A stretch of 64,000 nt of DNA, from positions 129,676 through 193,675 of the forward strand of contig JAKAUN010000002.1 in assembly GCA_021817605.1 (NCBI GenBank), read 5' to 3'. The notes under the pieces were generated by a model. That model was given only the letters and a program-made list of their open reading frames with translations, was not told where the DNA came from and ran no database searches. Shown here piece after piece: positions 38,809-52,708 of the stretch. How positions within the stretch are numbered: position 1 is the stretch's first letter; the number at the start of each line of letters is the position of its first letter. Source of the stretch: Thermoplasmata archaeon. Its GTDB lineage: Archaea; Thermoplasmatota; Thermoplasmata; Lutacidiplasmatales; UBA184. Made by a program: the position numbers and the translations under genes.

Positions 38809-38985
38809 CTAGTGCACGAGGAACCAGGTGACGACGCCGGCCACGGCGATCACGAGCGTGTTGAGGAGCGCGAGCCAGAAGAATCCCCAGAGCTCGGAGA
38901 TTCCCTCCGTCGGCCCGACCTGGGGACCGGGGGTCGAGCTCCCCGGGTTCGGGGCGTAGGGCGTCCGGAACGTCCCCTCGCTCAT
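38809..38985 (-). CDS. 58-residue single-helix membrane protein
   Basis: A short ORF: polar, Pro/Gly-rich N-terminus (SEGTFRTPYAPNPGSS) then one long hydrophobic helix (ELWGFFWLALLNTLVIAVAG to VVTWFLVH). A TTAAG (39012-39016) lies about 25-30 bases upstream of the ATG, giving a leaderless start and supporting reality. Size and topology resemble small accessory subunits of respiratory complexes, and the heme-copper oxidase operon begins 1 kb away, but there is no direct evidence for that role. Confidence 0.6.
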   Translation of the reverse strand: MSEGTFRTPYAPNPGSSTPGPQVGPTEGISELWGFFWLALLNTLVIAVAGVVTWFLVH

Positions 38986-39064
38986 CGCTGGGGGAACGAC
39001 CTCGGGACGTTCTTAACCCCTAGGTTCGAGCTCCCCGGACCCCCCGCGACGTCCGCCCGGAAGC

Positions 39065-39828: not shown

Positions 39829-40764
39829 CTACCAGGCGCTTGGTACCCCGGCGCGCACGAGCAGCACGTTGGCGGCGACCGCCGCCACGACCCCGAGCAG
39901 ATAGGGCCCCGAGTAGAGAAAGCCGCGACGCGCCGTCCGGGAGGAGGTGTCCCGCCAGAGCGGGCCGGTGAGCGCGACGAACACGAGCCCGAGGGCGACC
40001 AGCACCACGGTCACCGGCCAGCTCACCGCCCCGACGAGCCCGGCGGCGGCCGGCACGAGCAGGGCCGCCGAGGCGACCACGACCTTGCCCGAGAAGGCCG
40101 GGTCGTCCATCCTCGGCAGCATCGGGAGGTCGACCTTCGCGTAGTCCTCCCGGAGCAGGAGCGCGAGGCTCCAGAAGTGGGGAGGGGTCCAGAGGAAGAC
40201 CAGGACGGCGAGGGCGACCGCCCCGTCCGTCCATGTCCCGCTCGCCGCCGCGCTCCCGGCGAGCACCGGAGCGCTCCCGGCGAAGCCACCGATGACGATG
40301 TTCCAGCTCGACCGACGCTTTAACCAGGCGGTGTAGACGACCACGTAGGTGACTCCGCCCAAGAGGATCGAGAGGCCCGTGAGGGGGTTGAGCAGGAGCG
40401 TCGCGGCAGCGACGCCCCCGCCCAGGAGCACTAGCCCGACGGCGGCCGCCGCGCCGCCGTGGTCGATGCGGTGCGCCGGCAGCGGTCGGCCCCGGGTCCG
40501 GCGCATCCGGGCGTCGAGATCGCGGTCCAGGTAGTGGTTGAGCATCGCCGCGCCGGCGCTCCCTGCCGCTCCCGTGACGACCAGGATCCCGAGCGGGAGG
40601 AGGACGACCGTTGCCGGGCGCGCGAGAAGGTAGCCGCCGACCGCGACCAGAACGATGAGCCCGGTGATCCCGGGCTTGGCGAGCGAGAACCAGTCGCGGA
40701 GCCCGCCTCCTTGGGCCGCCGGTGCGGCTGGGGATGGGGCGACGGAGCTCGTAACGGTCGTCAT
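39829..40764 (-). CDS. ctaB: Protoheme IX farnesyltransferase (heme O synthase)
   Basis: UbiA-type integral membrane enzyme that adds a farnesyl chain to heme B, making heme O. Signature NHYLDRDLDARMRRTRGRPLP (first Asp-rich loop), YTAWLKRRSSWNIVIGG, and LFLWTPPHFWSLALLLREDYAKVDLPMLP. 311 residues from ATG 40764, with a TTG seven codons earlier as alternative. Last gene of the respiratory operon, next to ctaA, so heme A for the oxidase is made from the same transcript. Confidence 0.93.
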   Translation of the reverse strand: MTTVTSSVAPSPAAPAAQGGGLRDWFSLAKPGITGLIVLVAVGGYLLARPATVVLLPLGILVVTGAAGSAGAAMLNHYLDRDLDARMRRTRGRPLPAHRIDHGGAAAAVGLVLLGGGVAAATLLLNPLTGLSILLGGVTYVVVYTAWLKRRSSWNIVIGGFAGSAPVLAGSAAASGTWTDGAVALAVLVFLWTPPHFWSLALLLREDYAKVDLPMLPRMDDPAFSGKVVVASAALLVPAAAGLVGAVSWPVTVVLVALGLVFVALTGPLWRDTSSRTARRGFLYSGPYLLGVVAAVAANVLLVRAGVPSAW

Positions 40765-40798
40765 GGAAGCGGTCGGTCGGGGCAACGCCCCCCCCCGA

Positions 40799-41371
40799 TT
40801 AGCTCTGAGGGGGGGAGACGGCGGCCTTCGGGGCGGGGACCCGCGGGACGGTCCCTGTCGCCTCGTCCGTCGGGATCGAAGGACGCTCCTCGGAGGCCCG
40901 ACGGGCCCAGTCGATCCAACGACGGGGCATCTGGCGCATGTTGGAGAGCAGCGCGAGGACGAGCAACAGGCCGAAGAGCGCGGTGGCGATCGCGAGGTGG
41001 ACGAGGACCAGGGCGATGGTGAGGTCGCTGCGCACGACCCAGCCGCCGAGCGCCGCCTCGACGACCACGAGCCCGAGGGCCACGAGGCCGAGCCGGAGGA
41101 GGACCGGCCGCTGGCGCTCGTAGGCGACCCCGAGGAGGGCCATCGCGAGCACGCAGCTCGAGAGGAAGAACGCCGCCACGCGGTGGCTCCACTCCACGAA
41201 CGCCGCGCCGTGGACGTCGGGAAGCAGGCTGTGGTTCGGGTAGCAGGTCGGCCAGGTGGGACAGCCGAGGCCGCTGTCGCTGGCCATCACCGTCCCGCCG
41301 AGCAGGATGGTCGAATAGCAGAGGAGCGCCGCGACGAGAACCGCGGTCCGGAAGAGGTCGTGGCCGCGCAT
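40799..41371 (-). CDS. ctaA: Heme A synthase, compact archaeal form (CtaA/Cox15)
   Basis: Oxidises the C8 methyl of heme O to the formyl of heme A. 190 residues with four hydrophobic helices, half the size of bacterial CtaA. Compact four-helix forms are known from archaea such as Aeropyrum and probably work as dimers. Visible features are GLGCPTWPTCYP (the Cys pair loop), EWSHRVAAFFLSSC and LVHLAIATALFG, which supply the His ligands. The last 45 residues are a Pro/Ala-rich tail. 7 bases after coxA. Confidence 0.88.
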   Translation of the reverse strand: MRGHDLFRTAVLVAALLCYSTILLGGTVMASDSGLGCPTWPTCYPNHSLLPDVHGAAFVEWSHRVAAFFLSSCVLAMALLGVAYERQRPVLLRLGLVALGLVVVEAALGGWVVRSDLTIALVLVHLAIATALFGLLLVLALLSNMRQMPRRWIDWARRASEERPSIPTDEATGTVPRVPAPKAAVSPPQS

Positions 41372-41378
41372 GGCGCGG

Positions 41379-43049
41379 CTACGGCTCCTGCGCGACGCTC
41401 GGGACCGGCACCGGCATGCGCAGCGGCGAGGGCGTCGGCGCCGGACCGGTCATCGTGGAGGGGAGCGGCTCGCCCCACGGGTCCTCGGTCGCCACCGGCA
41501 CGCCGGCGTAGTAGGAGTAGACCATGTTGAACAGGAAGACGAGCTGGCCGACGCCGAAGATGTAGGCTCCGAGCGTCGCGAGGAAGTTGAGGAACTGGAA
41601 GTTGCCCGACCACAGGTAGGTGTAGACCCGCCGGGGCATCCCCTCGGCACCGAGGATGAACATCGGGAAGAGCAGGAGGTTCACGCCGACGTAGGTCAGG
41701 AGGAAATGGACGTGGCCGAGCCGCTGGCTGTACCAGCGCCGGGTCAGGATAGGGAAGTAGAAGTAGATCCCGGCGAAGATCGCCATCAGGGTCCCGCCGA
41801 GCAGGATGTAGTGGAAGTGGGCCACGACGAAGTAGGTGCCGTGGTAGAGGTAGTCGACGGGGATCGAGGCGAGCATCACGCCGGAGAGCCCTCCGATCAC
41901 GAAACCGGTGATGAACGCGACGCAGAACCACATCGGGACGGCCATCCAGATGCGGCCGCCCCAGAGCGTCGCGACCCAGTTGAACGTCTTGACCGCCGAA
42001 GGCACCGCGATCGCCATCGTGGTGAGCATGAAGACGAACCGCACGTCGGTCGAGATCCCCGTGACGAACATGTGGTGCTCCCAGACGGCGAAGGAGAGGA
42101 CGGCGAAGACGCCGAGGGAGATCGCCATCGCGGCGTAGCCGAAGATGTCCTTGCGCGCGAGCTTCGGGAGAACGGTGGAGATGATCCCGAACGCCGGCAG
42201 GACCATGATGTAGACCTCCGGGTGGGCGAAGAACCAGAAGACGTTCTGGTAGAGCAGCGCCCCACCGAGCGGCGTGCCGTTCGACGCCGCGAGGATGTGG
42301 GTGTGGAAGAGCCGGTCGGAGAGGACCATCGTGAGGCCGATGGAGAGCGACGGGAGGGCGAAGATGAGGAGGACCGAGTTGATGAGGGTCGCCCAGACGA
42401 AGAGCGGCATGTTCCAGTAGTGGACGCCCGGGGCGCGGTGCTTGAGGATGGTGACGAGGAAGTTCACCGCCCCCAGCATGGAGGAGACGGTGAGGATGTG
42501 CAGGCCGAGGATCCACAGGTCGATCCCGTTGCCCGGCATCTGCACCGAGAGCGGCACGTAGCCGGTCCAGCCGGCGTTGGCGTTCGAGAGAAGGAGGATG
42601 ATCCCCGCGGGAGGGAGGAGCCAGAAGGCGATCGCGTTGATGCGCGGGAGCGCCATCTCGCGCGAGCCGATCATCGAGGGGACGAGGAAGTTGCCGAAGC
42701 CGGCCAGGGTCGGCATGATGAACATGAAGATCATCAGCACCCCGTGCATCGTGAACAGGGTCGAGTAGACATCCGGGGAGATCCCGAGGGTCGTCTGGGG
42801 ATCGAGCCCTAGGCCCTGCACGAGGCCGAGGTCGGTGCGGATCAGCATCGCGTAGATCCCGCCGATGAAGAAGAACAGGATCCCGGTGGCGATGTACATG
42901 AGGCCGATGCGCCGGTGGTCGGTGGTGAACAGCCAGGTCTTGATCGCGCGGAGAAGCCACTCGCCCCGGTAGGAGAGCACGCCGAGGAGGAACGCAGCGA
43001 ACCCGAGGACGAGAGCGAGCTCGGTCCCGAGCGACAGCCACGCGGTCAC
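41379..43049 (-). CDS. coxA: Heme-copper oxidase subunit I (A-type cytochrome oxidase)
   Basis: Catalytic subunit that reduces O2 and pumps protons; 556 residues, 12 or more helices. Heme and copper ligands are present: [27 protein letters not shown] (CuB His, cross-linked Tyr and the D-channel-end Glu), EHHMFVTG (CuB His pair) and [12 protein letters not shown] (heme a and a3 His). The K-channel Lys is in [10 protein letters not shown]. The D-channel entrance, normally IGAPDMAFPRMN, reads [12 protein letters not shown], so Glu replaces the entrance Asp. A Pro-rich C-terminal tail follows. The ATG overlaps the gene upstream. Confidence 0.96.
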
Positions 43050-43411
43050 GAGAGCAACCCCCCGACGAGGTAGGCGACCGCCGCGGCGGCGAGGACGAGG
43101 ACCAGGACCTTGAGGAAACGCACCTGCGACTGTTCGGTCACCGGCCCCGGCGGGGTCGGCCGGAACTTCCTTCCGAGGGGCCAGGAGCGGTAGGTCCTGT
43201 CGAGGACGTGGAAGAGGACCGCACCCATGAGCGCCATCAGGGCGATGGCGAGCCCGAAGGACTCCTGCACGCCGGGCCCGTTGAGAGGGCCGAGCCGGAG
43301 CACGTAGACGATCAGCACCGCGATGCCGAGGAGCATGAGCAGCGTCGTGGCCGAGTAGAGGTCGAGGACACGGCGGACGGCCGTTCGGCGGTCGAGCTCG
43401 GGATCACTCAA
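43046..43411 (-). CDS. Small membrane protein of the oxidase operon (3 helices)
   Basis: 121 residues with three hydrophobic helices ([57 protein letters not shown]) and polar loops. It overlaps both neighbours by 4-8 bases, so it is translationally coupled into the oxidase operon. It sits where subunit III/IV genes often lie but is too short for a canonical subunit III; a lineage-specific accessory subunit is the best guess. Confidence 0.7.
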
Positions 43412-43670
43412 AGAGCCCCACCTTCCTCTTCGTCGCGCCGCGGTAGCGGTCGACCCGGTAGAGGATCCCGGCGGTGAACAGGAAGGCGAGGAACGCCACG
43501 GCGGCTCCCGCCCCCACGGCCAGGCCCCCGACGAGCGGCGAGGAGGCGTACGCCCCGAGCCCGTAGACGATCGTGGCGAGGCCGACCGCCCCGAAGACGA
43601 GGAACACCGCGAGGATCCCCCACAGGACGGCGGTCGATCCCCGCGGGGCCTCCTCCGCCCGCTCAGTCAC
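43404..43670 (-). CDS. Small membrane protein of the oxidase operon (2 helices)
   Basis: 88 residues, two helices (AVLWGILAVFLVFGAVGLATIVYGLG and VGGLAVGAGAAVAFLAFLFTAGILY), then a basic C-terminus [17 protein letters not shown]. Overlaps cytochrome b by 8 bases upstream and the next gene by 8 bases downstream. Could be subunit IV-like or a bc-complex accessory protein. Confidence 0.68.
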   Translation of the reverse strand: MTERAEEAPRGSTAVLWGILAVFLVFGAVGLATIVYGLGAYASSPLVGGLAVGAGAAVAFLAFLFTAGILYRVDRYRGATKRKVGLFE

Positions 43671-45018
43671 GGCCGGTGGCCTCCGGCCGGGCCGCAGGGG
43701 CGCCAGCGGGGGGAGGGAGATAGGCTCCGGTGTAGGGGACCGCGGCCGTTCGGGAGGCGAGGCGCCGCCGGTAGCCGCGGACGTAGCGCCAGTGGAAGAG
43801 CAGGACGACCAGGCCGTTGACGAGGAAGAGCGGACCGAGCGTCGTGGCGACCTGAACTGTCGGGATCTGGACGCCGGGGGTCTCGCCTCCCCAGACGGTC
43901 ATGACGATGAAGAACGCCAGGAGCGACGTGCCGATCCAGACGAAGAACGGCCGATCGCGCGGATGCGTGCGCTTCGAGCGGTCGAGGAACGGCAGGAAGA
44001 GCACGAAGAGCAGCACCACGGTCGTGACGGCGACCGCGATCACCGGCGTGACCCCCTGGAAGTCGACCAGTTTGAACAGCCAGAGGAAGTACCAGTCCGG
44101 TTCGGTGACCCCCTGCTGGGCGGCGAGGTTGCCGACGTAGGTCGGCAGCTGCCACGGCCAGAGCGCCGCGATGCCGAAGAGGACGCCGACGTAGAGGAGC
44201 GCCCACTTGCCGATGTAGAACAGGATGTGCGGCATGAACGGGACGTGCTCCTTGGCCTCCCGGTCGGTGAAGCGGCGCCGCTGGGTGGGGTCCGAGGTGG
44301 AGGGAGGGGCTATCCCGTGCGACTCGAACAGCGCGATGTGGGCGTAGAGGAGGGCGCCGAGCGCCACCGGGATGAGCAGGACGTGCGCGTCGAACATCCG
44401 GGACAGGAGGCCCTGGGAAGTGCCGTCGCCCAGGATGAACGGCCCCAGGAGCGGGCCGACCGTCGGCAGCCTGAGGGCGAGGACGAGCCCGACATTGGTC
44501 GCGTTGTAGGAGAGCTGGGTGTAGGGCAGGAGGTAGCCGGTGAACCCCATTCCGAGGGTCATCACCATGAGGAGGGTGCCGACCATCCAGGAGAACTCGC
44601 GGGGCGCCTTGTAGACGCCGAGGTAGTAGCCGCGAAAGAAGTGGACGAACATGAGGAAGATCATCGCGTAGGCGCCGTAGAGGTGGGTGGAGAGGAGGAG
44701 CGAGCCCATCGGTACGGAATGGATGATGTAGTAGGTCGAGCACCAGGCGGCCGGTGCGGGCGAGGTCGTCCCGAGCGACTGGCCGCACGAGGTGAACGTC
44801 GCGTGGGTCGCCGTGCTCGGTTGGTAGTAGAGCAGGAGCAGCGCGCCCGAGATGACCTGGTAGAAGAACGCGTTCGCGACGAACGCCCCGGTCCAGTAGG
44901 ACGGCTTGAAGGAGAACTCCGGCTGGGGCCGTAGCGCCCAGCGTCGCATCGAGGTGCGGTCCTCGACGAACCCCCAGATCCGGTTGAGGGTCCGGTTGTA
45001 CCAGCGGGAGAAGACCAC
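43663..45018 (-). CDS. petB: Cytochrome b of a Rieske/cytochrome b complex
   Basis: 451-residue diheme quinol-oxidising subunit. The helix B pair is STHLYGAYAMIFLMFVHFFRG (13 residues between His) and the helix D pair AHVLLIPVALGALLYAH (14 between, the b6-like spacing). The quinol-site loop reads EPDWYFLW, the PDWY form of PEWY. The N- and C-terminal halves are joined in one polypeptide. It follows the Rieske gene by 12 bases and precedes the oxidase genes, so quinol oxidation and O2 reduction are co-transcribed. Confidence 0.94.
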   Translation of the reverse strand: MVFSRWYNRTLNRIWGFVEDRTSMRRWALRPQPEFSFKPSYWTGAFVANAFFYQVISGALLLLYYQPSTATHATFTSCGQSLGTTSPAPAAWCSTYYIIHSVPMGSLLLSTHLYGAYAMIFLMFVHFFRGYYLGVYKAPREFSWMVGTLLMVMTLGMGFTGYLLPYTQLSYNATNVGLVLALRLPTVGPLLGPFILGDGTSQGLLSRMFDAHVLLIPVALGALLYAHIALFESHGIAPPSTSDPTQRRRFTDREAKEHVPFMPHILFYIGKWALLYVGVLFGIAALWPWQLPTYVGNLAAQQGVTEPDWYFLWLFKLVDFQGVTPVIAVAVTTVVLLFVLFLPFLDRSKRTHPRDRPFFVWIGTSLLAFFIVMTVWGGETPGVQIPTVQVATTLGPLFLVNGLVVLLFHWRYVRGYRRRLASRTAAVPYTGAYLPPPAGAPAARPEATGRD

Positions 45019-45030
45019 TTTGTCGTCCTC

Positions 45031-45849
45031 CTAGGTCGGGAAGCTGCAGGTGATCACCGGCGCCTCCTTCTCGAGCTGCGAGTTCGACCCGACTCCGTAG
45101 TCGCCCTGGAGGGTGCTGATGTGCCCGTTCACGGGCGGGCCGGTCTCCCCGACGGCGTAGAGGTAGTCGTTGCCCCCCTGGCTCGGGTCGTCCCACTCGA
45201 TGGTGACCTGGGGGAGCGGAAGGACCGCCGGTCCGGTGAGGTTAGCCGCCCCGTCGGTGACGTCGTAGGTCGACCCGTGGCAGCTGCAGTGGATGTAGAA
45301 CGGCAGGCTGCCGTTCTTGAACGTCTGGCTGCAGGTTCCCGGAGGGTAGTAGGAGATCGCCGGGGCCGGGCAGCCGAGGTGCTGGCAGATGGCGCTGAAG
45401 GCGACGATCGACTTGTTCGGGCCGACCCCGTTCTTCACCGTGTAGCTGCTCCCCGACGGAGGAGGGTAGAGGTTCAGCAGGAAGTTCGGCTCGTTGCGGA
45501 GAGGGTAGTTGAACAGGAACAGATCGCTCGTCCCGATGTTGTACTCGCTGTCGACCTTGGTGGCGGTGAGGGGGGAGCCGTCCACGTCGAGCAGCTGGGT
45601 CTTCGGGTAGGCGGAGATCCCCACGGCCGGAGGCTGGACGTACTGCAGGGCGCCGCCCGCGACACCGCCGATCCCCACGCCGAGGACGCCCGCGACCGCG
45701 GCGAGCTTGAGGAGGTTGCGTTTGGTCTCGTCGACCTCGGGCTCCACCGCGGCGACGCGGTGGATCTGGCCGACCGGGAACTCAAGGCGAGCGTCCCCAC
45801 CCCCGAAACGAGGGCAAGAGCTCGAGCAGGAGGACGGCTCCACGTTCAT
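45031..45849 (-). CDS. Rieske iron-sulfur protein
   Basis: 272 residues. Cluster motifs are CQHLGCPAP and HCSCHGSTYD (two Cys, two His plus the Cys disulfide pair). The N-terminal anchor is preceded by a Tat-like twin (DETKRNLLKLAAVAGVLGVG), with Lys-Arg in place of Arg-Arg. Folded Rieske domains are a classic Tat substrate, and tatC and two tatA genes lie directly upstream in the same operon. The 45 residues before the anchor are cytoplasmic and contain two CSSSC-type cysteines of unknown use. Confidence 0.93.
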   Translation of the reverse strand: MNVEPSSCSSSCPRFGGGDARLEFPVGQIHRVAAVEPEVDETKRNLLKLAAVAGVLGVGIGGVAGGALQYVQPPAVGISAYPKTQLLDVDGSPLTATKVDSEYNIGTSDLFLFNYPLRNEPNFLLNLYPPPSGSSYTVKNGVGPNKSIVAFSAICQHLGCPAPAISYYPPGTCSQTFKNGSLPFYIHCSCHGSTYDVTDGAANLTGPAVLPLPQVTIEWDDPSQGGNDYLYAVGETGPPVNGHISTLQGDYGVGSNSQLEKEAPVITCSFPT

Positions 45850-46034
45850 TCCAAGCTCCTCCCGCGCGTGTCCGGCACCGCGTCGTCCGCCTCGCCCGGA
45901 GCCGGCAGGACCGCCTCACCGGGAAGCTCGGCGTCCTCGCTGCCGTAGTAGACGGCCCAGATGACGGCGATCCCGAGGAGCAGGGCGAGGACCTCGGTGA
46001 GCGTAATGATCTGAGTGACCGTGAGCGCGCTCAC
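45846..46034 (-). CDS. Small single-helix membrane protein (62 residues)
   Basis: One helix (IITLTEVLALLLGIAVIWAVYYG) followed by an acidic, Pro-rich tail. It overlaps the Rieske gene and the tatA-like gene by 4 bases each (ATGA-type), so it is coupled to both. Likely a small subunit of the Rieske/cytochrome b complex or a Tat helper; no family recognised. Confidence 0.65.
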   Translation of the reverse strand: MSALTVTQIITLTEVLALLLGIAVIWAVYYGSEDAELPGEAVLPAPGEADDAVPDTRGRSLE

Positions 46035-46432
46035 TTCCCCTCCCCCTCGCGTGGTTGCACGCTGCTAAGGCTGGTCGACCAGCTGGTCATGACATAGCCG
46101 AAGCCCACGGCCCCGGGAGCGGCGGGCGCGAACGGCGCCGGCCCCGCCGGGCCCTGCGGGGGGGTTCGCACCGCCGCCGGGATCCCGCGGCCGGCGCTCG
46201 GCGGTGCGCCGAGCCCGAGGAGCGCGGCCCGGAACGACCCCGGGCTCGTCCCCGCGGGCAGCGGAAGTTCGGCGGCGCGGGCGAACTCGCCCACGAGCTC
46301 CTGCTTCAGATGGTTCGCGCGGCTGTACCACTTCCCGAGGGTGCGGATCGCCTGCGTGTTGCCCCGGCCGAAGAGGAGGAACGCCCCCACGACGAGGATG
46401 ATCAGCCAGTCGATGTCGGAGAGAAGCGCCAC
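46031..46432 (-). CDS. TatA-like protein with extended Pro/Ala tail
   Basis: 133 residues. The N-terminus matches TatA/E: a short helix DIDWLIILVVGAFLLFGRG (with the FG motif) and the amphipathic TQAIRTLGKWYSRANHLKQELVGEF. About 80 residues of Pro/Ala/Gly follow, much longer than usual. Second TatA of the locus, 4 bases after tatC. It may play a TatB-like role. Confidence 0.75.
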   Translation of the reverse strand: MALLSDIDWLIILVVGAFLLFGRGNTQAIRTLGKWYSRANHLKQELVGEFARAAELPLPAGTSPGSFRAALLGLGAPPSAGRGIPAAVRTPPQGPAGPAPFAPAAPGAVGFGYVMTSWSTSLSSVQPREGEGK

Positions 46433-46436
46433 GTCG

Positions 46437-47270
46437 TTAGCCCCCTGCCGGGGCGAGTGGGCCCCCGCGCCCGCCGTCCCGTCGGCTCTCCCATCGCCGC
46501 GCGAAGTAGGCCCCGCCGAAGTAGAGCCCGATCATCGGCGTGGCGATGAGGAGCATCGTAATGCCGGAGTTGTCGGGCGTGACGATCATCCCGAAGACGA
46601 GCGCGCCGATCACCGCCCCGCGCCAGTGCTTACCCCAGGCGGCGGCCCGCACGACGCCGAGGCGGGTGAGCGCGTAGAGGAAGACCGGCAGCTCGAAGAC
46701 GACCCCGAAGGCGAGCGAGTAGAGGAGGGCGAAGGTCACGAACGACTGCGCGCCGAGCACCGGGGCGAGGCCCATGGCGTAGACATACAGGAAGAGGAGG
46801 CGGAAGGTGAACGGAGTGAGGAAGAATAGCCCGGCAAGGGTCCCGCCGGCGAACAGCAGGCTCGCGGGGAGCCCGATCTCCCTCAGGAGGCGCCGCTCGT
46901 GGCCGCGCAGCGCCGGCACCAGGAAGGCGCCGAGCTCGTGGACGATCCACGGCATCCCGAAGATGAGCGTGAGGAGCAGCCCGATCTCCATCTGCACGAC
47001 GATCGAATCGCCGACCCCCACGTTGAGGAGCGTCACACCGTGTGGGAGCATCCAGCGGACCATGGCGCGGAAGACCTGGGCGGTGACGTTGTAGAACGGG
47101 CTCGGCCAAGGGTAGGCGAACGGGACGCTCACCGCGCCGAGGTCCAGCCGCCAGGGCACGAGCTCGAAGAAGATCAGGAAACCGAAGATCGCCGCGAGGA
47201 CGACACCGAGGCGGACCAGCCGGCGGCGGGCCTCGGTCACGATGGCCAGGATCCGGGGAAGGTCGGCCAT
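46437..47270 (-). CDS. tatC: Twin-arginine translocase subunit TatC
   Basis: 277 residues with six hydrophobic helices. TatC hallmarks are FGMPWIVHELGAFLVPALRGHERR, LFFLTPFTF, FGVVFELPVFLYALTRLGVV (the FELP motif) and VFGMIVTPDNSGITMLLIATPM. It recognises twin-arginine signals and, with TatA, exports folded proteins. It stands directly upstream of the Rieske gene, its most likely substrate; the Cys-rich copper proteins nearby have Sec-like signals instead. Confidence 0.93.
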   Translation of the reverse strand: MADLPRILAIVTEARRRLVRLGVVLAAIFGFLIFFELVPWRLDLGAVSVPFAYPWPSPFYNVTAQVFRAMVRWMLPHGVTLLNVGVGDSIVVQMEIGLLLTLIFGMPWIVHELGAFLVPALRGHERRLLREIGLPASLLFAGGTLAGLFFLTPFTFRLLFLYVYAMGLAPVLGAQSFVTFALLYSLAFGVVFELPVFLYALTRLGVVRAAAWGKHWRGAVIGALVFGMIVTPDNSGITMLLIATPMIGLYFGGAYFARRWESRRDGGRGGPLAPAGG

Positions 47271-47369: not shown

Positions 47370-47576
47370 CTACCGGGCGGTCCCGGGAGGCGAAGCGCCG
47401 CCCTGGGCCTTGGCCTGCTCGGCCTGGTACTCGCGCTCGGAGTCAAGGCGTCCCCGCTTGAACTCCCCCACCGACCGGCCCAGGCTCCGGGCCAGCTGGG
47501 GGATCTTGGTCGACCCGTAGAAGAGAACTCCAAACACGACCGCGATGATCAGCCAATCGTCAATCGAATCGAACAT
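47370..47576 (-). CDS. tatA: Twin-arginine translocase subunit TatA
   Basis: 68 residues, canonical TatA: WLIIAVVFGVLFYGSTKIPQLARSLGRSVGEFKRG with short helix, hinge and amphipathic helix. First gene of the respiratory operon. A 99-base gap separates it from tatC. The GTAC-N5-CCATATC promoter lies 35-50 bases upstream of its ATG. Confidence 0.93.
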   Translation of the reverse strand: MFDSIDDWLIIAVVFGVLFYGSTKIPQLARSLGRSVGEFKRGRLDSEREYQAEQAKAQGGASPPGTAR

Positions 47577-47610: not shown

Positions 47611-47626
47611 GATATGGCGTTCGTAC
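47611..47626 (-). promoter_or_regulatory. Promoter of the tat-Rieske-cox operon, copy 1 of the GTAC-N5-CCATATC element
   Basis: Plus-strand reading GATATGG (47611-47617), five bases, GTAC (47623-47626). On the minus strand CCATATC is the TATA candidate, 35 bases from the tatA ATG, and GTAC lies just upstream of it. The same arrangement recurs at 51672 and 52676. Confidence 0.65.
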
Positions 47627-47726
47627 GGTGTGACGCAACTGGTGCGAACCGTCCGGACTCGGAGGAGATAAACCCCCGACCGGCCGACGCAACGGCGGGC
47701 CGGACGCGGACGCGGGCGACCGGCGG

Positions 47727-48770
47727 CTAGGCCGCCTCGACCAGGATCGTCTCGTTGCCCGCCGCCACGGCGCGGTCGATCGCGATCTCGGCGAGCAGCT
47801 CGAGGCAGCCGGCGGAGCGTTCCAACAGCTGCGTGACCGGCCGTAGCGAGGTCGACCCCGCCGCCGCGCCCCGACCGGATCGGTCCCGGACCGCCGCGCG
47901 GAGCGTCCCCGCGCCCCCGTGGTAGACCTCGCAGGCGTGGTCGAGCGACGGGTGGATGAGCGCGTCCACGACCTCCTTGAGATGCGCCTTGAGCTCGGGA
48001 AGCGTCTCCGCGAGCGAGGAGCTCGACGCGCTGCCGAGGCGCGAGGCCTGCCGGTTGAGGATCCCGAGCGCTTCGGCGTACATCTCCGCGAGCTCCTCGA
48101 GCGCGTGCACGACGACCCGCCACTCGAGGAGGTGGCGCGGGTCCGGGCTCCCGATGCGCCGGGCGAGCGACCAGTCGCGGCTCGCGAGGAAGAGCTGACG
48201 GACCAAAAGTGCGAGGACCTTGCTCGACTCCTCCTCGAGCGTCCCGAGCCGACGGCTCGCGGAGCGCTTGCGCAGGGCCTCCTCGATCTCCTCGAGGAAG
48301 GCGATGAGGATCATCTTGGTCCGCTGGACCAGCTGGGGCAGGCCGTACTTGGACGGGTCGATGAAGTTCTGGAGGACCACCCGGTTGGGCTCCTGGGAGA
48401 CCACCGAGACCCCAAGCAGGCCTCGGGCCGTCTCCAGGAGCTCCTCGACGCGCTCCGGGGCAAGGGCGACATCCGTGCGGATCTCGATCGCGTCGTGGCC
48501 GACCCGGTAGGCGCCGATGACGAGCCGCTCGAGGATCCCCGGCGTGGCGAAGGAACGCGCCTGGACGAGGAACGGCGCGGCGGTGCTTCCGGCTCCGGGG
48601 ACCGGCGCCGGCTTGAGGAAGAGCGTGCCGTCGTCGTTCTGGTCGAAGACGACCACGTCCCCCGGCCTCAGGTTCATCGCCTCTGCCCACGGCTTCGGCA
48701 GCGTGACCGCTATGGACGAGTGGCCGGCTTTGAGGACGCGACGCTCACGACTGGGGACACCCCACGCCAT
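47727..48770 (-). CDS. AbrB-PhoU-type transcriptional regulator
   Basis: 347 residues from the ATG at 48770. The N-terminal AbrB/MazE DNA-binding hairpin is RRVLKAGHSSIAVTLPKPWAEAMNLRPGDVVVFDQNDDG; two PhoU-like helical bundles follow (about residues 110-345). Archaeal proteins of this build are annotated as phosphate uptake regulators. No phosphate transporter lies nearby; it sits inside the respiratory locus. A palindrome overlaps its promoter, suggesting autoregulation. Confidence 0.85.
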   Translation of the reverse strand: MAWGVPSRERRVLKAGHSSIAVTLPKPWAEAMNLRPGDVVVFDQNDDGTLFLKPAPVPGAGSTAAPFLVQARSFATPGILERLVIGAYRVGHDAIEIRTDVALAPERVEELLETARGLLGVSVVSQEPNRVVLQNFIDPSKYGLPQLVQRTKMILIAFLEEIEEALRKRSASRRLGTLEEESSKVLALLVRQLFLASRDWSLARRIGSPDPRHLLEWRVVVHALEELAEMYAEALGILNRQASRLGSASSSSLAETLPELKAHLKEVVDALIHPSLDHACEVYHGGAGTLRAAVRDRSGRGAAAGSTSLRPVTQLLERSAGCLELLAEIAIDRAVAAGNETILVEAA

Positions 48771-48781
48771 CGGACCTTCCA

Positions 48782-48811
48782 AACCTACTACGAGGTTCGT
48801 AGGTTATACAG
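48782..48811 (-). promoter_or_regulatory. TATA box and overlapping palindromic operator of the AbrB-PhoU regulator
   Basis: Perfect arms AACCTAC (48782-48788) and GTAGGTT (48799-48805) around a 10-base spacer. On the minus strand TATAACC (48802-48808) is the TATA candidate and overlaps the upstream arm; the downstream arm ends 12 bases before the ATG, around the expected transcription start. Protein bound here would block TBP/TFB or polymerase. Confidence 0.6.
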
Positions 48812-48844
48812 GGAGGGGTTCTTGAACGTTGCGCCGCGCCCGGC

Positions 48845-49555
48845 CTACGGAGCGGGCGGGGGGGCGTGCGGCGGCTCGGAAGGGCTCCCGGCCCCGCCGG
48901 ACGGCTCGGGATAGCCGAGGCGTTCCGGAGGCATCTCGTGGACCGAGCCCTCCCGCCGGCCGATGACGAACCCGAGGACGATCGCGAGGACGGTGAGCGC
49001 GACGATCGTCGCCACGATGATGAAGACCGCGATGCCGGGTCCGACCGCCCCGCCGCTCAGGCTCAGGTTGGACGGGAGGTTCTCGCCGAAGGCGATGAAC
49101 CCGTACATCCCCTTCTCGAAGTGACCGGAGACCGCGCAGAGGAACTCGTACCAGCCCATCGCATGGACGGTGAAGGTCCCTTGGACGGTCTGGCCGGCGG
49201 CGGCCGAGATCGAGACCAGCGAACCGTAGTGGGTGAGAAGGTCCGAGACGTTACCGGTCGAGGCGGAGTTGGGGATCACCCAGCCCGAACGGTTGAGGAT
49301 CGTGAAGGTGTGGGTGAGCGCCGGGTCGGCGTTGGTGAACGTCACAGTGACCGTCGTGTTGAGCGGGACCTGGTCGTACTCTCGGGTGTCGAAGTCGAAG
49401 TTCGTCACCGCGGTCTCGGCGATCTGGCCGCTCGTGGCGACCACCACGGGGCGGGCAACCGCCACGTGCGACACACCGAGCGCGGCGACGCAGGCCAGCA
49501 CCGAGACGGAGAGAAGCAGCGCGACCGGTCTACGCCAGAACTGCCTACTTCTCAT
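48845..49555 (-). CDS. Membrane-anchored cupredoxin (blue copper protein)
   Basis: 236 residues: an N-terminal signal segment (PVALLLSVSVLACVAALG), one cupredoxin domain facing outward, a C-terminal anchor (GPGIAVFIIVATIVALTVLAIVLG) and a Pro-rich cytoplasmic tail. Type 1 copper ligands are the His of LTHTFTIL and the Cys, His and Met of FLCAVSGHFEKGM. Divergent from coxB. It is the best candidate for shuttling electrons from the Rieske/cyt b complex to CuA. Confidence 0.88.
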   Translation of the reverse strand: MRSRQFWRRPVALLLSVSVLACVAALGVSHVAVARPVVVATSGQIAETAVTNFDFDTREYDQVPLNTTVTVTFTNADPALTHTFTILNRSGWVIPNSASTGNVSDLLTHYGSLVSISAAAGQTVQGTFTVHAMGWYEFLCAVSGHFEKGMYGFIAFGENLPSNLSLSGGAVGPGIAVFIIVATIVALTVLAIVLGFVIGRREGSVHEMPPERLGYPEPSGGAGSPSEPPHAPPPAP

Positions 49556-49615
49556 GCGGGATCCGATCGCTCACCGGCGAGGGCTTCCCACCTGAGGGTG
49601 GTTCAAAGCCCCTCC

Positions 49616-49698
49616 GTACGTACCTGCTCGCACGCGTCCCCGGCGAGGCCACCGCGGCGGCCGGCCAGGTGTCCGTACGAACGCGGGCGATAAGTAGC
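49616..49698. promoter_or_regulatory. Divergent promoter region cupredoxin/coxB with GTAC sites
   Basis: The 157-base gap holds GTACGTAC at 49616-49623 and CCGTACGAACGC at 49673-49684. The latter 12-mer is identical to the sequence around the GTAC of the tatA promoter (minus-strand reading). GATAAGTA at 49689-49696 is the TATA candidate for coxB, about 21 bases before the GTG. Spacing to GTAC is 10 here rather than 5, so this is a partial match to the element. Confidence 0.4.
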
Positions 49699-49712
49699 AC
49701 GGCACGCAAGCG

Positions 49713-49940
49713 GTGGGCGTGTACCCCGCGGAGCCGGTGCGCGCCCCGGCGGCGCCGGTGTGGGCCGCGGCCGTCGGTCTCATCGCCGCGGCGTCGGAGA
49801 GCAACCTCGCGCAGACGACCACGCTCGTCTGGACGTTGGTGGCGATCGGCGCCGCAGGGGCGATCGTGACGTTCGCCATCATGGTCTACGCCCTGCTCAA
49901 GTTCCGGGACCCCGCAACGCGGAGGCGCCGGTATGGTTGA
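49713..49940 (+). CDS. coxB1: Cytochrome oxidase subunit II, N-terminal part (first helix)
   Basis: 75 residues from a GTG: a signal-like segment (APVWAAAVGLIAAAS), then TTTLVWTLVAIGAAGAIVTFAIMVYALLKFRDP, which corresponds to transmembrane helix 1 of subunit II and its cytoplasmic basic end (RRRRYG). It stops with TGA inside the start of the next frame (ATGGTTGA, 49933-49940). Together the two ORFs make one complete CoxB; either the gene is naturally split in the cytoplasmic loop or one base differs from the true sequence. Confidence 0.72.
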   Translation: MGVYPAEPVRAPAAPVWAAAVGLIAAASESNLAQTTTLVWTLVAIGAAGAIVTFAIMVYALLKFRDPATRRRRYG

Positions 49941-50397
49941 GCGGCTCGAGGTCGCCTGGACGCTCGTCGTGGTCGGCCTCCTCACGGGAGTCGCCGTCTA
50001 CTCCACGGTCCTCCTCTACCACCTGGACGCGCTCCCGGCCCATCCCAACGAGTACGTGAACGTCATCGGGCACCAGTGGTACTGGGAGTTCTGCTACCCG
50101 GCGAACAAGACCTGCTTCAACTCGAGCTACGACCCGTCGACCAACAGCGTCTCGGGCGGGGCATTATGGGCGCATCCCGGTTGGGTCGTCCAGCTCAACA
50201 TCACCTCGGCCGACGTCATCCATTCGCTCAACATACCGGCGCTGGGCGTCCGCATCGACGCGATACCGGGCCGGATGAACCACTTCGCCTTCACGGTGCC
50301 GGCCGCCGCCGCGCTCGGCACGATGTACCTCATCCAGTGCACCGAGTTCTGCGGAACGTTCCACGGAACGATGCGCTCGTTCCTCATCGTAAGCTAG
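49933..50397 (+). CDS. coxB2: Cytochrome oxidase subunit II, C-terminal part (helix 2 and CuA domain)
   Basis: 154 residues. It opens MVERLEVAWTLVVVGLLTG, the usual start of helix 2 in CoxB (LEVAWT), then GHQWYWEF (aromatic electron-entry region) and the CuA site: the His of DVIHSLNIPALGV and the C-x3-C-x3-H-x2-M of CTEFCGTFHGTM. Complete CuA ligands mean it takes electrons from a soluble or anchored one-electron carrier rather than quinol. Overlaps the first part by 8 bases, +1 frame. Confidence 0.93.
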   Translation: MVERLEVAWTLVVVGLLTGVAVYSTVLLYHLDALPAHPNEYVNVIGHQWYWEFCYPANKTCFNSSYDPSTNSVSGGALWAHPGWVVQLNITSADVIHSLNIPALGVRIDAIPGRMNHFAFTVPAAAALGTMYLIQCTEFCGTFHGTMRSFLIVS

Positions 50398-50417
50398 CGG
50401 CCTGCGCACCGGGGCAC

Positions 50418-50435
50418 GGGTCCCCGACGGGACCC
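50418..50435 (+). other. Hairpin just after coxB
   Basis: GGGTCCC-CGAC-GGGACCC, seven perfect pairs with a 4-base loop, 20 bases after the coxB stop and followed by C-rich rather than T-rich sequence. It may stabilise the mRNA 3' end; it is not a typical archaeal poly-T terminator. Confidence 0.35.
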
Positions 50436-50609
50436 CCCCAGCGGTGTCTCCCTCCAAGGGACGCCGCAAGAGACCAGGAGCCCCCGTTCGCGGGAACGAC
50501 TCCCGCCCCGGTCCTTTCGCTCGGTCAGGCGCGAGCGCCGCGACCGCGCGCGCCGGACCGACCGGGACGGGACCCCGGTTCGGCTCGGCGGGGGCCGGTC
50601 CTTGGCTCG

Positions 50610-51635
50610 CTACGGGTGGCCGGGTTCCCGGGGAGGCCGACGCGAGAACCTCCCGGCGAAACCGGAGGCCGTGGCGAGCACGATCCCGATCCCCAGCAGC
50701 ACCCCCGCACCGGCGAGGACGCCCCCCTGGACGATGGCGGTGCTCGGCGGGGGCGCCGGTTTCGGGACGGCAACACCTACGTAGAGGAAGCCGAACATCC
50801 CTGCCTGGAAGTGGCCGGCGATCGTGCAGGCGAACTCGTAGACCCCCGGCTTGGGCACCGTGAAGCTCCCCGAAACGGTCGCCCCTGGCGAGGCGTTCAC
50901 CGAGAGGTTGACGAGCGGCACGATCCCCGCGACCGTAGCGAGCGTCTGGTTCGCCGCCGCGGAGAGAGTGAAGGTGTGCGGAAAGTTCCCCAGGTTGGTG
51001 ACGACGATCTTGAGGTTGGTCGCGCCACCGGACGCGGGCGGGGTGGCGGAGAGGAGGGAGGGCACGAAGGAAAGGCTGTTGGTCGTGTTCACCGAGAGGC
51101 TCTGCACCGGACCGGCGGCGGTGATGTTCAGGAACCCGAACATCCCCGCCTGGAACTGGTAGGGGACCACGGAGACGAACTCGAAGGAGAGCGCGGTGGT
51201 CGAGACCGGGTAGCTGAGGTTCTCCCAGACGCTCGTGCCGGGCGCCACGCTCACGTTGACCTGCGAGCCAAACTTCTGGAAGTACTGGTAGAGCTCCAAG
51301 GGGGTCCACGACCGCTTGAGCGGGGTGCCCGATTGGTTCGTGTTCTCCAGGGTGAAGGTGTGCGCGAGGCTCCCCACGTTGGTGAGGTGGAGATTGACGG
51401 TGGAGTTGGACGGGACGACGAGGGAGGACGGAGCGAAGGACGGGGCGTCGGTGAGGTTCATCGCAACGGTCTTGCTCGACGCCCCCGGGTGGGCGTAGCC
51501 GACCCGCGGGGCGAGGGGGATCGCGTGGGCGGCCGCTATCGCCGGGGCGATTGCCAGGAGCACCAGCCCCGCCACGAGCACCGCGACAGCACGGCGTCCG
51601 GGTCGTGACGGAGCGACGAACGGCACGTCGGTCAC
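50610..51635 (-). CDS. Tandem cupredoxin protein, one domain lacking copper ligands
   Basis: 341 residues from the GTG at 51635; the shared promoter element upstream rules out the earlier ATG at 51725. Signal segment RRAVAVLVAGLVLLAIAPAIA, two homologous cupredoxin domains and a C-terminal anchor (GGVLAGAGVLLGIGIVLATA). Domain 2 has all type 1 ligands (His of FPHTFTLS; Cys, His, Met of FACTIAGHFQAGM). Domain 1 keeps the first His (LAHTFTLE) and the Met, but the aligned stretch reads FVSVVPYQFQAGM, so Cys became Ser and His became Gln. Confidence 0.85.
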   Translation of the reverse strand: MTDVPFVAPSRPGRRAVAVLVAGLVLLAIAPAIAAAHAIPLAPRVGYAHPGASSKTVAMNLTDAPSFAPSSLVVPSNSTVNLHLTNVGSLAHTFTLENTNQSGTPLKRSWTPLELYQYFQKFGSQVNVSVAPGTSVWENLSYPVSTTALSFEFVSVVPYQFQAGMFGFLNITAAGPVQSLSVNTTNSLSFVPSLLSATPPASGGATNLKIVVTNLGNFPHTFTLSAAANQTLATVAGIVPLVNLSVNASPGATVSGSFTVPKPGVYEFACTIAGHFQAGMFGFLYVGVAVPKPAPPPSTAIVQGGVLAGAGVLLGIGIVLATASGFAGRFSRRPPREPGHP

Positions 51636-51671
51636 GGCGTAACCCGAGGGTGTGACGACCTGGGTCGCGTT

Positions 51672-51687
51672 GATATGGTGTTTGTAC
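51672..51687 (-). promoter_or_regulatory. Promoter of the tandem cupredoxin gene, copy 2 of GTAC-N5-CCATATC
   Basis: Plus-strand GATATGG (51672-51678), five bases, GTAC (51684-51687). The spacer and flank are close to the tatA copy (GATATGG-YGTTY-GTACG in both). The box is 37 bases from the GTG at 51635, against 35 for tatA. Confidence 0.65.
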
Positions 51688-51717
51688 GAATTGCCACGAG
51701 CGCCCCTCCCCGGTCGG

Positions 51718-52647
51718 TCACCCACCCGAGGGCTCGGGAGAGGCGCGAGCCCGCGACTCGAGGCTCCCCGGCGCCTTGGCCCCCGACTCGGCGTAGCAGC
51801 TGCGGACGAGAAAGGCGACCTCGCCCGTCATCACGACCCCCATGACCGTCCCGAAGGCGATCCGTGGAACGGTGGAGCCGCCGCCCCCGGCCAGTCCGAG
51901 GCCGGCGAGGGTCATCGCGACGAACGCGAGCGAGATCCCGAGCAGGAACGGGGCCTCCTCCGGCGCCACGCGCCGTCTAAGAAGCAGCCGCAGAAGCAGG
52001 GCGACGACGAGCGCCATCACCCCGGCGAAGAGAAGGCCGCCGGCAAGGGGGAAGGCGCCGACCCACGGCGCGACGAACGCCGAGGCGAGGAGACCGAGGG
52101 CGACCGTGCGCTCGGCCGGGCGCAGGCGCGCCCAGAGCAGCAGCCCGGCCATGACGGCCGACATCGACCAGAAGTACCAGACCGAGGAGAGGCCGAGAGC
52201 GAGCCTCCCGAGCAAGGAGCTCGTCCCTCCCGGGTCGGCGACCGCGAAGAGCACTCCCATGAACACCTCCGAGCCCGTGGCGGCGGCCCCGAGCGCGACG
52301 GGCCAGAGCCAGCCGTCCTCGGCGACCCGGCGGTCGTGGTAGACGACGAGCGCGATGAACCAGAGGCCGATCGGCACGGTCATCATGAAGTTGAACGCCG
52401 TGAGCACCCACGTCCACGCCGAGTAGGCGGCCGGGTTGACGAAGGCGAAGACGAGGGCCAGCAGCAGCACGCTCCCCCCGGCGACCACGGCGAAGGCGAG
52501 GAGCATCTGGGTGAGCAGCGGAGCCCTGCGCTCGCCCGAGAGGACGAGGCCGAGGACGACGATCGTGATCGCGACCATCGCCGCGGCCACGCCGGCGAAC
52601 GGGGCGAGCGCCGCGTCGGAGGAGAAACCGGGGATCGGGACGAGCAT
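51718..52647 (-). CDS. Unknown multi-helix membrane protein of the respiratory locus
   Basis: About 309 residues from ATG 52647; starts at 52665 or 52749 are possible but would lie on or upstream of the predicted transcription start. Eight or nine hydrophobic helices, the first ALAPFAGVAAAMVAITIVVLGLVL. Possible functional residues lie in FNFMMTVPIGLWFIALVVYHDRR, GSEVFMGVLFAVAD and SSVWYFWSMSAVMAG. No known family recognised. It shares the GTAC-N5-CCATATC promoter with the tat/cox operon and tandem cupredoxin, so a role in respiration or copper/heme delivery is likely. Confidence 0.68.
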   Translation of the reverse strand: MLVPIPGFSSDAALAPFAGVAAAMVAITIVVLGLVLSGERRAPLLTQMLLAFAVVAGGSVLLLALVFAFVNPAAYSAWTWVLTAFNFMMTVPIGLWFIALVVYHDRRVAEDGWLWPVALGAAATGSEVFMGVLFAVADPGGTSSLLGRLALGLSSVWYFWSMSAVMAGLLLWARLRPAERTVALGLLASAFVAPWVGAFPLAGGLLFAGVMALVVALLLRLLLRRRVAPEEAPFLLGISLAFVAMTLAGLGLAGGGGSTVPRIAFGTVMGVVMTGEVAFLVRSCYAESGAKAPGSLESRARASPEPSGG

Positions 52648-52675
52648 CGGACCGGCCGAGGACATCAGAGCGTTT

Positions 52676-52691
52676 GATATGGGAACCGTAC
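52676..52691 (-). promoter_or_regulatory. Promoter of the unknown membrane protein gene, copy 3 of GTAC-N5-CCATATC
   Basis: Plus-strand GATATGG (52676-52682), five bases, GTAC (52688-52691). The box is 29 bases from the ATG at 52647, giving a short leader. Confidence 0.6.
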
Positions 52692-52708
52692 CGACCCCCC
52701 GAGGTCGG

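Follow-up and report, generated by a model that had tools for sequence, protein, structure and literature searches.

A conserved GTWCGWAC promoter element and its likely AbrB-PhoU regulator in the respiratory locus of Lutacidiplasmatales archaea

To our knowledge, little seems to be known about the control of aerobic respiration in Thermoplasmatota. Uncultured soil Lutacidiplasmatales are thought to have gained aerobic respiration independently, and their cluster of complex III/IV, haem A, Tat, and cupredoxin genes, the same gene cluster as the one studied here, is known (PMC9287336). A text search of that paper found neither a term for promoters nor any account of how the respiratory cluster is regulated. 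The locus raises the question of whether its promoters share a control element, and if so, which protein might read it. We address this in a 64-kb window (the whole stretch of DNA that was analysed), in the genome that contains it, and in related genomes.

The original prediction was that a motif, GTAC-N5-CCATATC, is shared by several promoters of the respiratory locus and marks a candidate regulon, a claim that was supported and extended by the comparison of relatives. On the plus strand, GATATGG-N5-GTAC is found exactly at 47611-47626, 51672-51687, and 52676-52691, in each case ahead of a minus-strand gene (tatA, the tandem cupredoxin, and a membrane protein, respectively). No fourth copy was found in the 64-kb window, even with one mismatch, and three copies were reached in none of 100 dinucleotide shuffles of the window. 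Rather than being scattered at random in coding sequence across the whole genome (1,746,615 bases, 16 contigs), the motif has these three promoter copies as its sole occurrences, and the backward-read pattern, used as a control, gave zero matches in the same 1.75 Mb. In 61 genomes, the 11-base pattern returned mostly one 16-mer from the same genus, GTACGAACGCCATATC, which recurs unchanged in 19 genomes of that genus, including the one studied here, and precedes tatA wherever the fetched loci show that gene. A recurrent match in the genus, CGTACGACTACGATATC, was rejected as a promoter because it is coding sequence (YDYDI).

As promoter background we used the window and ~350 kb of sampled genome stretches in which genes were called, giving 234 upstream regions. 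These show an AT peak near -28 with a TTATA-type box, and many promoters of the genome are probably leaderless. GTAC occurs between -75 and -30 in 11 of the 234 regions. The full GTAC-N7-TATA arrangement is seen in three, and the respiratory locus accounts for two of these. In the element, GTAC lies 8–11 bp upstream of the TATA core, i.e., upstream of the genome's BRE position. It does not have the profile of a BRE-type core promoter element, which would be common among the genome's promoters and adjacent to TATA; GTAC is outside the ordinary promoter of this genome. The proposal that CCATATC may be the TATA box, with GTAC beyond the BRE, agrees with the spacing as well as with the promoter profile of this genome.

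Comparison of approximately 75 syntenic Lutacidiplasmatales loci shows what is common to these sites: GTWCGWAC, or a GTAC half of it, placed some 7 bp ahead of a TATA-like box at five promoters. Four of these serve the tatA operon, the tandem cupredoxin, the coxB operon, and sulfocyanin; the fifth, that of the membrane protein, has a weaker variant (GGTCGGWAC-N7-ATAW in relatives). The aligned promoters read CCCGTACGAACGCC-ATATC for tatA, GATTCGTACa-N6-ATATCAAC for cupredoxin, GGTTCGTACGcggg-N2-ATATgtAg for coxB, and GTaCGTACggAggGgc-TTTGAA for sulfocyanin (box CTTTGAA, with a T-run that begins one base later); together, the sites of the promoter families fit GTWCGWAC. The GTAC-N7-TATA spacing is fixed in four promoter families, in roughly 50-75 loci each, counts that come from permissive regular expressions and to which the per-column alignment frequencies are the stronger evidence. 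For example, among 70 distinct tatA loci, TAC is invariant and GAAC is conserved at 93-100% per column. In several coxB promoters, including that of the window, the 8-mer is reverse-complemented (GTACGAAC) and still sits 7 bp before the box, as would be expected of a near-palindromic operator. RTWCGWAC-N7-WTAW was found in 55 genomes of the genus mainly at coxB and cupredoxin, and its two matches in the own genome are only there; the backward control in the 55 genomes was nearly empty. In light of these alignments, the predicted shared core needs revision: CCATATC fits a TATA box, but as just one TATA variant, and the conserved part is GTWCGWAC/GTAC at fixed spacing. Similarly, the three promoters first proposed all belong to the locus, but the set was incomplete, as it missed the coxB operon and sulfocyanin promoters; nor are the three copies equal, since the first two are deeply conserved and the third is a weaker variant, conserved in architecture only.

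The syntenic loci share the order ctaB-ctaA-coxA-two small membrane proteins-cytochrome b-Rieske-tatA2-tatC-tatA-abrB-sulfocyanin, followed by divergent coxB, cupredoxin, and the membrane protein (Table 1). At tatA, the operator is part of an array: a second GTAC-like site lies 19 bp upstream of the first, conserved at columns -19 to -16 and degenerate in the window (GCAC). There is also a second TATA-like box further upstream, whose core is 45 bp from the GTAC in 50 of the 74 loci with the AbrB-PhoU gene; the box is missing in nearly all loci that lack this gene. In some genera this box mirrors the downstream one around the operator array. Cupredoxin promoters (L050, L051) have a conserved CCCAGGT block 8-14 bp downstream of the TATA-like box, and a similar CC..GGT is seen downstream of the tatA box.

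Table 1. Respiratory locus of the window: promoter elements, putative regulatory sites, and genes
Feature	Position	Strand	Remark
tatA operator and TATA-like box GTACGAACGCCATATC	47611..47626	-	34 bp before tatA ATG 47576
tatA operator array, upstream part, second GTAC-like site	47627..47655	-	alignment
Second TATA-like box GGTTTATCTCC	47664..47674	-	core 45 bp upstream of tatA GTAC
Candidate regulator AbrB-PhoU	47727..48770	-	PF04014, TIGR01439, predicted fold
Palindrome ACCTACGAACCTCGTAGTAGG just upstream of regulator start, putative autoregulatory site	48784..48804	-	conserved in nearly all loci
Sulfocyanin promoter element GGTACGTACGGAGGGGCTTTGAAC	49601..49624	-	59/69 loci matched
coxB-operon promoter element GTACGAACGCGGGCGATAAG	49675..49694	+	one of two genome-wide RTWCGWAC-N7-WTAW matches
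Tandem-cupredoxin promoter element ATTCGTACAAACACCATATC	51672..51691	-	48/52 loci
Membrane-protein promoter element GGTCGGTACGGTTCCCATATC, weaker variant	52676..52696	-	relatives' GGTCGGWAC-N7-ATAW
tatA, first gene of tat-Rieske-cytochrome b-cox-ctaAB operon	47370..47576	-	ATG start 47576
Operon remainder: tatC, tatA2, Rieske, cytochrome b, two small membrane proteins, coxA, ctaA, ctaB	39829..47270	-	
Sulfocyanin-like blue copper protein (SoxE)	48845..49555	-	
coxB operon: small membrane protein and COX2 subunit	49713..50397	+	
Tandem cupredoxin	50610..51635	-	GTG start near 51635
Membrane protein without Pfam match	51718..52647	-	likely ATG start 52647

A genome search for further targets with one mismatch allowed gave eight matches, of which the two perfect ones are both in the locus; among the six imperfect ones, two are in the window. 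One of these two, the operator-like site GCTCGAACCTAGGGGTTAA (39013-39031, minus strand; one mismatch), precedes a small gene (38809-38985) that lies a short way past the cta end of the operon. An operator shared by several promoters and conserved across species is the mark of a regulon, and this is what the alignments contain; as far as sequence comparison can tell, the element is part of a single-locus respiratory regulon.

Which protein reads it? The AbrB-PhoU gene sits inside the locus, between tatA and sulfocyanin. Its product has an AbrB-type N-terminal DNA-binding domain of the swapped-hairpin kind (PF04014, E 6.5e-11, above cut-off); TIGR01439 is matched in 52 of 52 family members (the window copy scores 27.5 against a cut-off of 28.3 bits). 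In the predicted structure (AlphaFold, pLDDT 82), this domain is followed by a small alpha/beta domain and a PhoU-like helical bundle, and the ten top-ranked hits in the PDB are PhoU proteins or resemble them (Foldseek probability 0.95-1.00, E 0.004-0.05). The Pfam PhoU match is weak and present in 3 of 52 members. From genus to genus, the DNA-binding segment, i.e., the AbrB domain, hardly varies, and neither does the operator. The promoter of the regulator carries a palindrome, AACCTAC-N10-GTAGGTT, that differs from GTWCGWAC, with only TACGnAC in common; in some relatives there is an extra half-site further upstream. The own genome also encodes two further AbrB-PhoU paralogues, G000:C5:87672-88655 and G000:C14:70570-71562 (32% and 30% identical).

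Genomes with and without this gene are informative. Protein searches gave nine genomes with the tat operon and without an AbrB-PhoU orthologue: G086, which is of the same genus as the window genome, four of g24, and four of g28. The element at tatA is absent in all nine, and the strict patterns occur nowhere in the stretches fetched from them (12-20 kb each). All compared genomes with the AbrB-PhoU gene carry the element, including nine comparison genomes of other genera with at least one each. On the TatC tree, g24 and g28, which lack AbrB, form a group (95/99 support) with g26 and g27, which have both gene and element, so a merely divergent version of the locus is no explanation. The pattern of gene and element needs two to three changes on this tree, at least two of them forced by supported branches; the gene-operator link thus draws on just 2-3 independent events, and some AbrB-less loci also differ in other genes. 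The G086 locus (L236) appears to be a reshuffled respiratory locus: tatA and tatC are 73-74% identical, Rieske and cytochrome b only 52-56%, and no AbrB or cox genes were found in its 20 kb. Because the tag is present only with the AbrB-PhoU gene in the cluster, AbrB-PhoU is probably a respiration switch, and by this association it is the best candidate and the likely regulator of the element. In addition, TATA scores at tatA are higher in AbrB-less genomes (median 9.5 vs. 6.4 in AbrB-bearing ones; Mann-Whitney p=0.005, a value that treats related genomes as independent). Higher-scoring boxes where the regulator is missing suggest activation.

The picture we infer is that AbrB-PhoU binds GTWCGWAC sites that precede weak TATA boxes by approximately one helical turn in the promoters of tat/bc/cox, coxB, sulfocyanin, and cupredoxin, where it would most likely help TBP/TFB to load, i.e., activate rather than repress. 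Autoregulation is the probable role of the palindrome at the start of its own gene, which differs from the operator, and the PhoU-like bundle may be the sensor of a respiration-linked signal. We consider this explanation as a whole, a single-locus aerobic-respiration regulon with an AbrB-PhoU operator, probable activation, and probable autoregulation, to be probable. Its sharper form, in which an activator responds to a signal of oxygen, redox, metal, or energy and switches on all transcription units of the bc/cox/blue-copper chain through GTWCGWAC, falls slightly short of an even chance.

AbrB-family proteins are often repressors, and the same protein could instead block access to BRE and TATA until oxygen, redox, metal, or phosphate state lifts the block. 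The site directly adjoins the BRE, the palindrome at abrB overlaps the presumed start there, and the tatA array, set between two TATA-like boxes, would mask the start that belongs to the upstream box. However, TATA boxes with the operator are weaker than those in AbrB-less relatives, which an activator explains more easily, and we regard repression as possible but somewhat unlikely. A more distant version of events would have another, unlinked factor bind GTWCGWAC while AbrB-PhoU binds only the palindrome of its own promoter and is linked to the operator indirectly. That palindrome indeed differs from the respiratory operator in both sequence and position, the tatA site has changed in several diverged species with no matching change at abrB, and co-variation of the two, which was sought across loci, was not found. 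But such a factor would need to have been lost along with AbrB-PhoU two to three times, and the genome-wide search gave no further conserved target pointing to another regulator gene, which makes this reading doubtful.

A specialised TFB paralogue might read GTAC as an extended BRE, making the element a promoter class and not a regulator-operator pair; the genome does have three TFB genes (C5, C6, C12), and the spacing to TATA is fixed. Yet GTAC falls outside the BRE position, the 8-mer is used in either orientation, and the AbrB-less G086 of the same genus has kept three TFB genes while the element is absent. With TFB gene counts that fail to track the element and a position that does not support it, this candidate was rejected as very improbable. 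TFB gene numbers reach about five in other genera of the family. Chance, or functionless shared ancestry of duplicated promoters, would fit the presence of all copies in one locus, but it is hardly credible: flanks are unrelated among promoters, the element is nearly invariant across genera, and where the cupredoxin gene is on another contig (L039, L040) the element goes along with it, as a site read in trans should.

Known systems resemble parts of the regulon that we propose. Lrp-type archaeal activators such as Ptr2 recruit TBP/TFB from sites immediately ahead of the BRE, and here too the operator is directly upstream of the core promoter; however, the protein family is different and the regulon is confined to a single locus. 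Copper response elements of plant and algal SBP-domain proteins have a GTAC core and copper-protein targets, as here, but these proteins are a eukaryotic family, and the likeness implies no homologue. Archaeal SpoVT/AbrB-family regulators with a PhoU domain, such as Thermococcus TK2245, listed as a chromosome-associated protein (PMC7325993), join an AbrB-type N-terminal domain to a PhoU-like C-terminal bundle, as does the window protein. What differs is that the present proposal names a specific operator, a set of targets, and a role in physiology. In the literature searched, we found neither a DNA target for AbrB-PhoU proteins nor a report of a GTWCGWAC-type element, and the operator is probably the first DNA target proposed for such a protein.

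Proteins like AbrB-PhoU are common in this archaeal class, with matches to the protein in 95 of the 120 genomes sampled across it, and the element offers a specific, testable regulator-operator pair. Such a pair suggests how a laterally acquired respiratory chain came under one switch. If true, it would provide the first DNA target and physiological role for this widespread archaeal AbrB-PhoU type.
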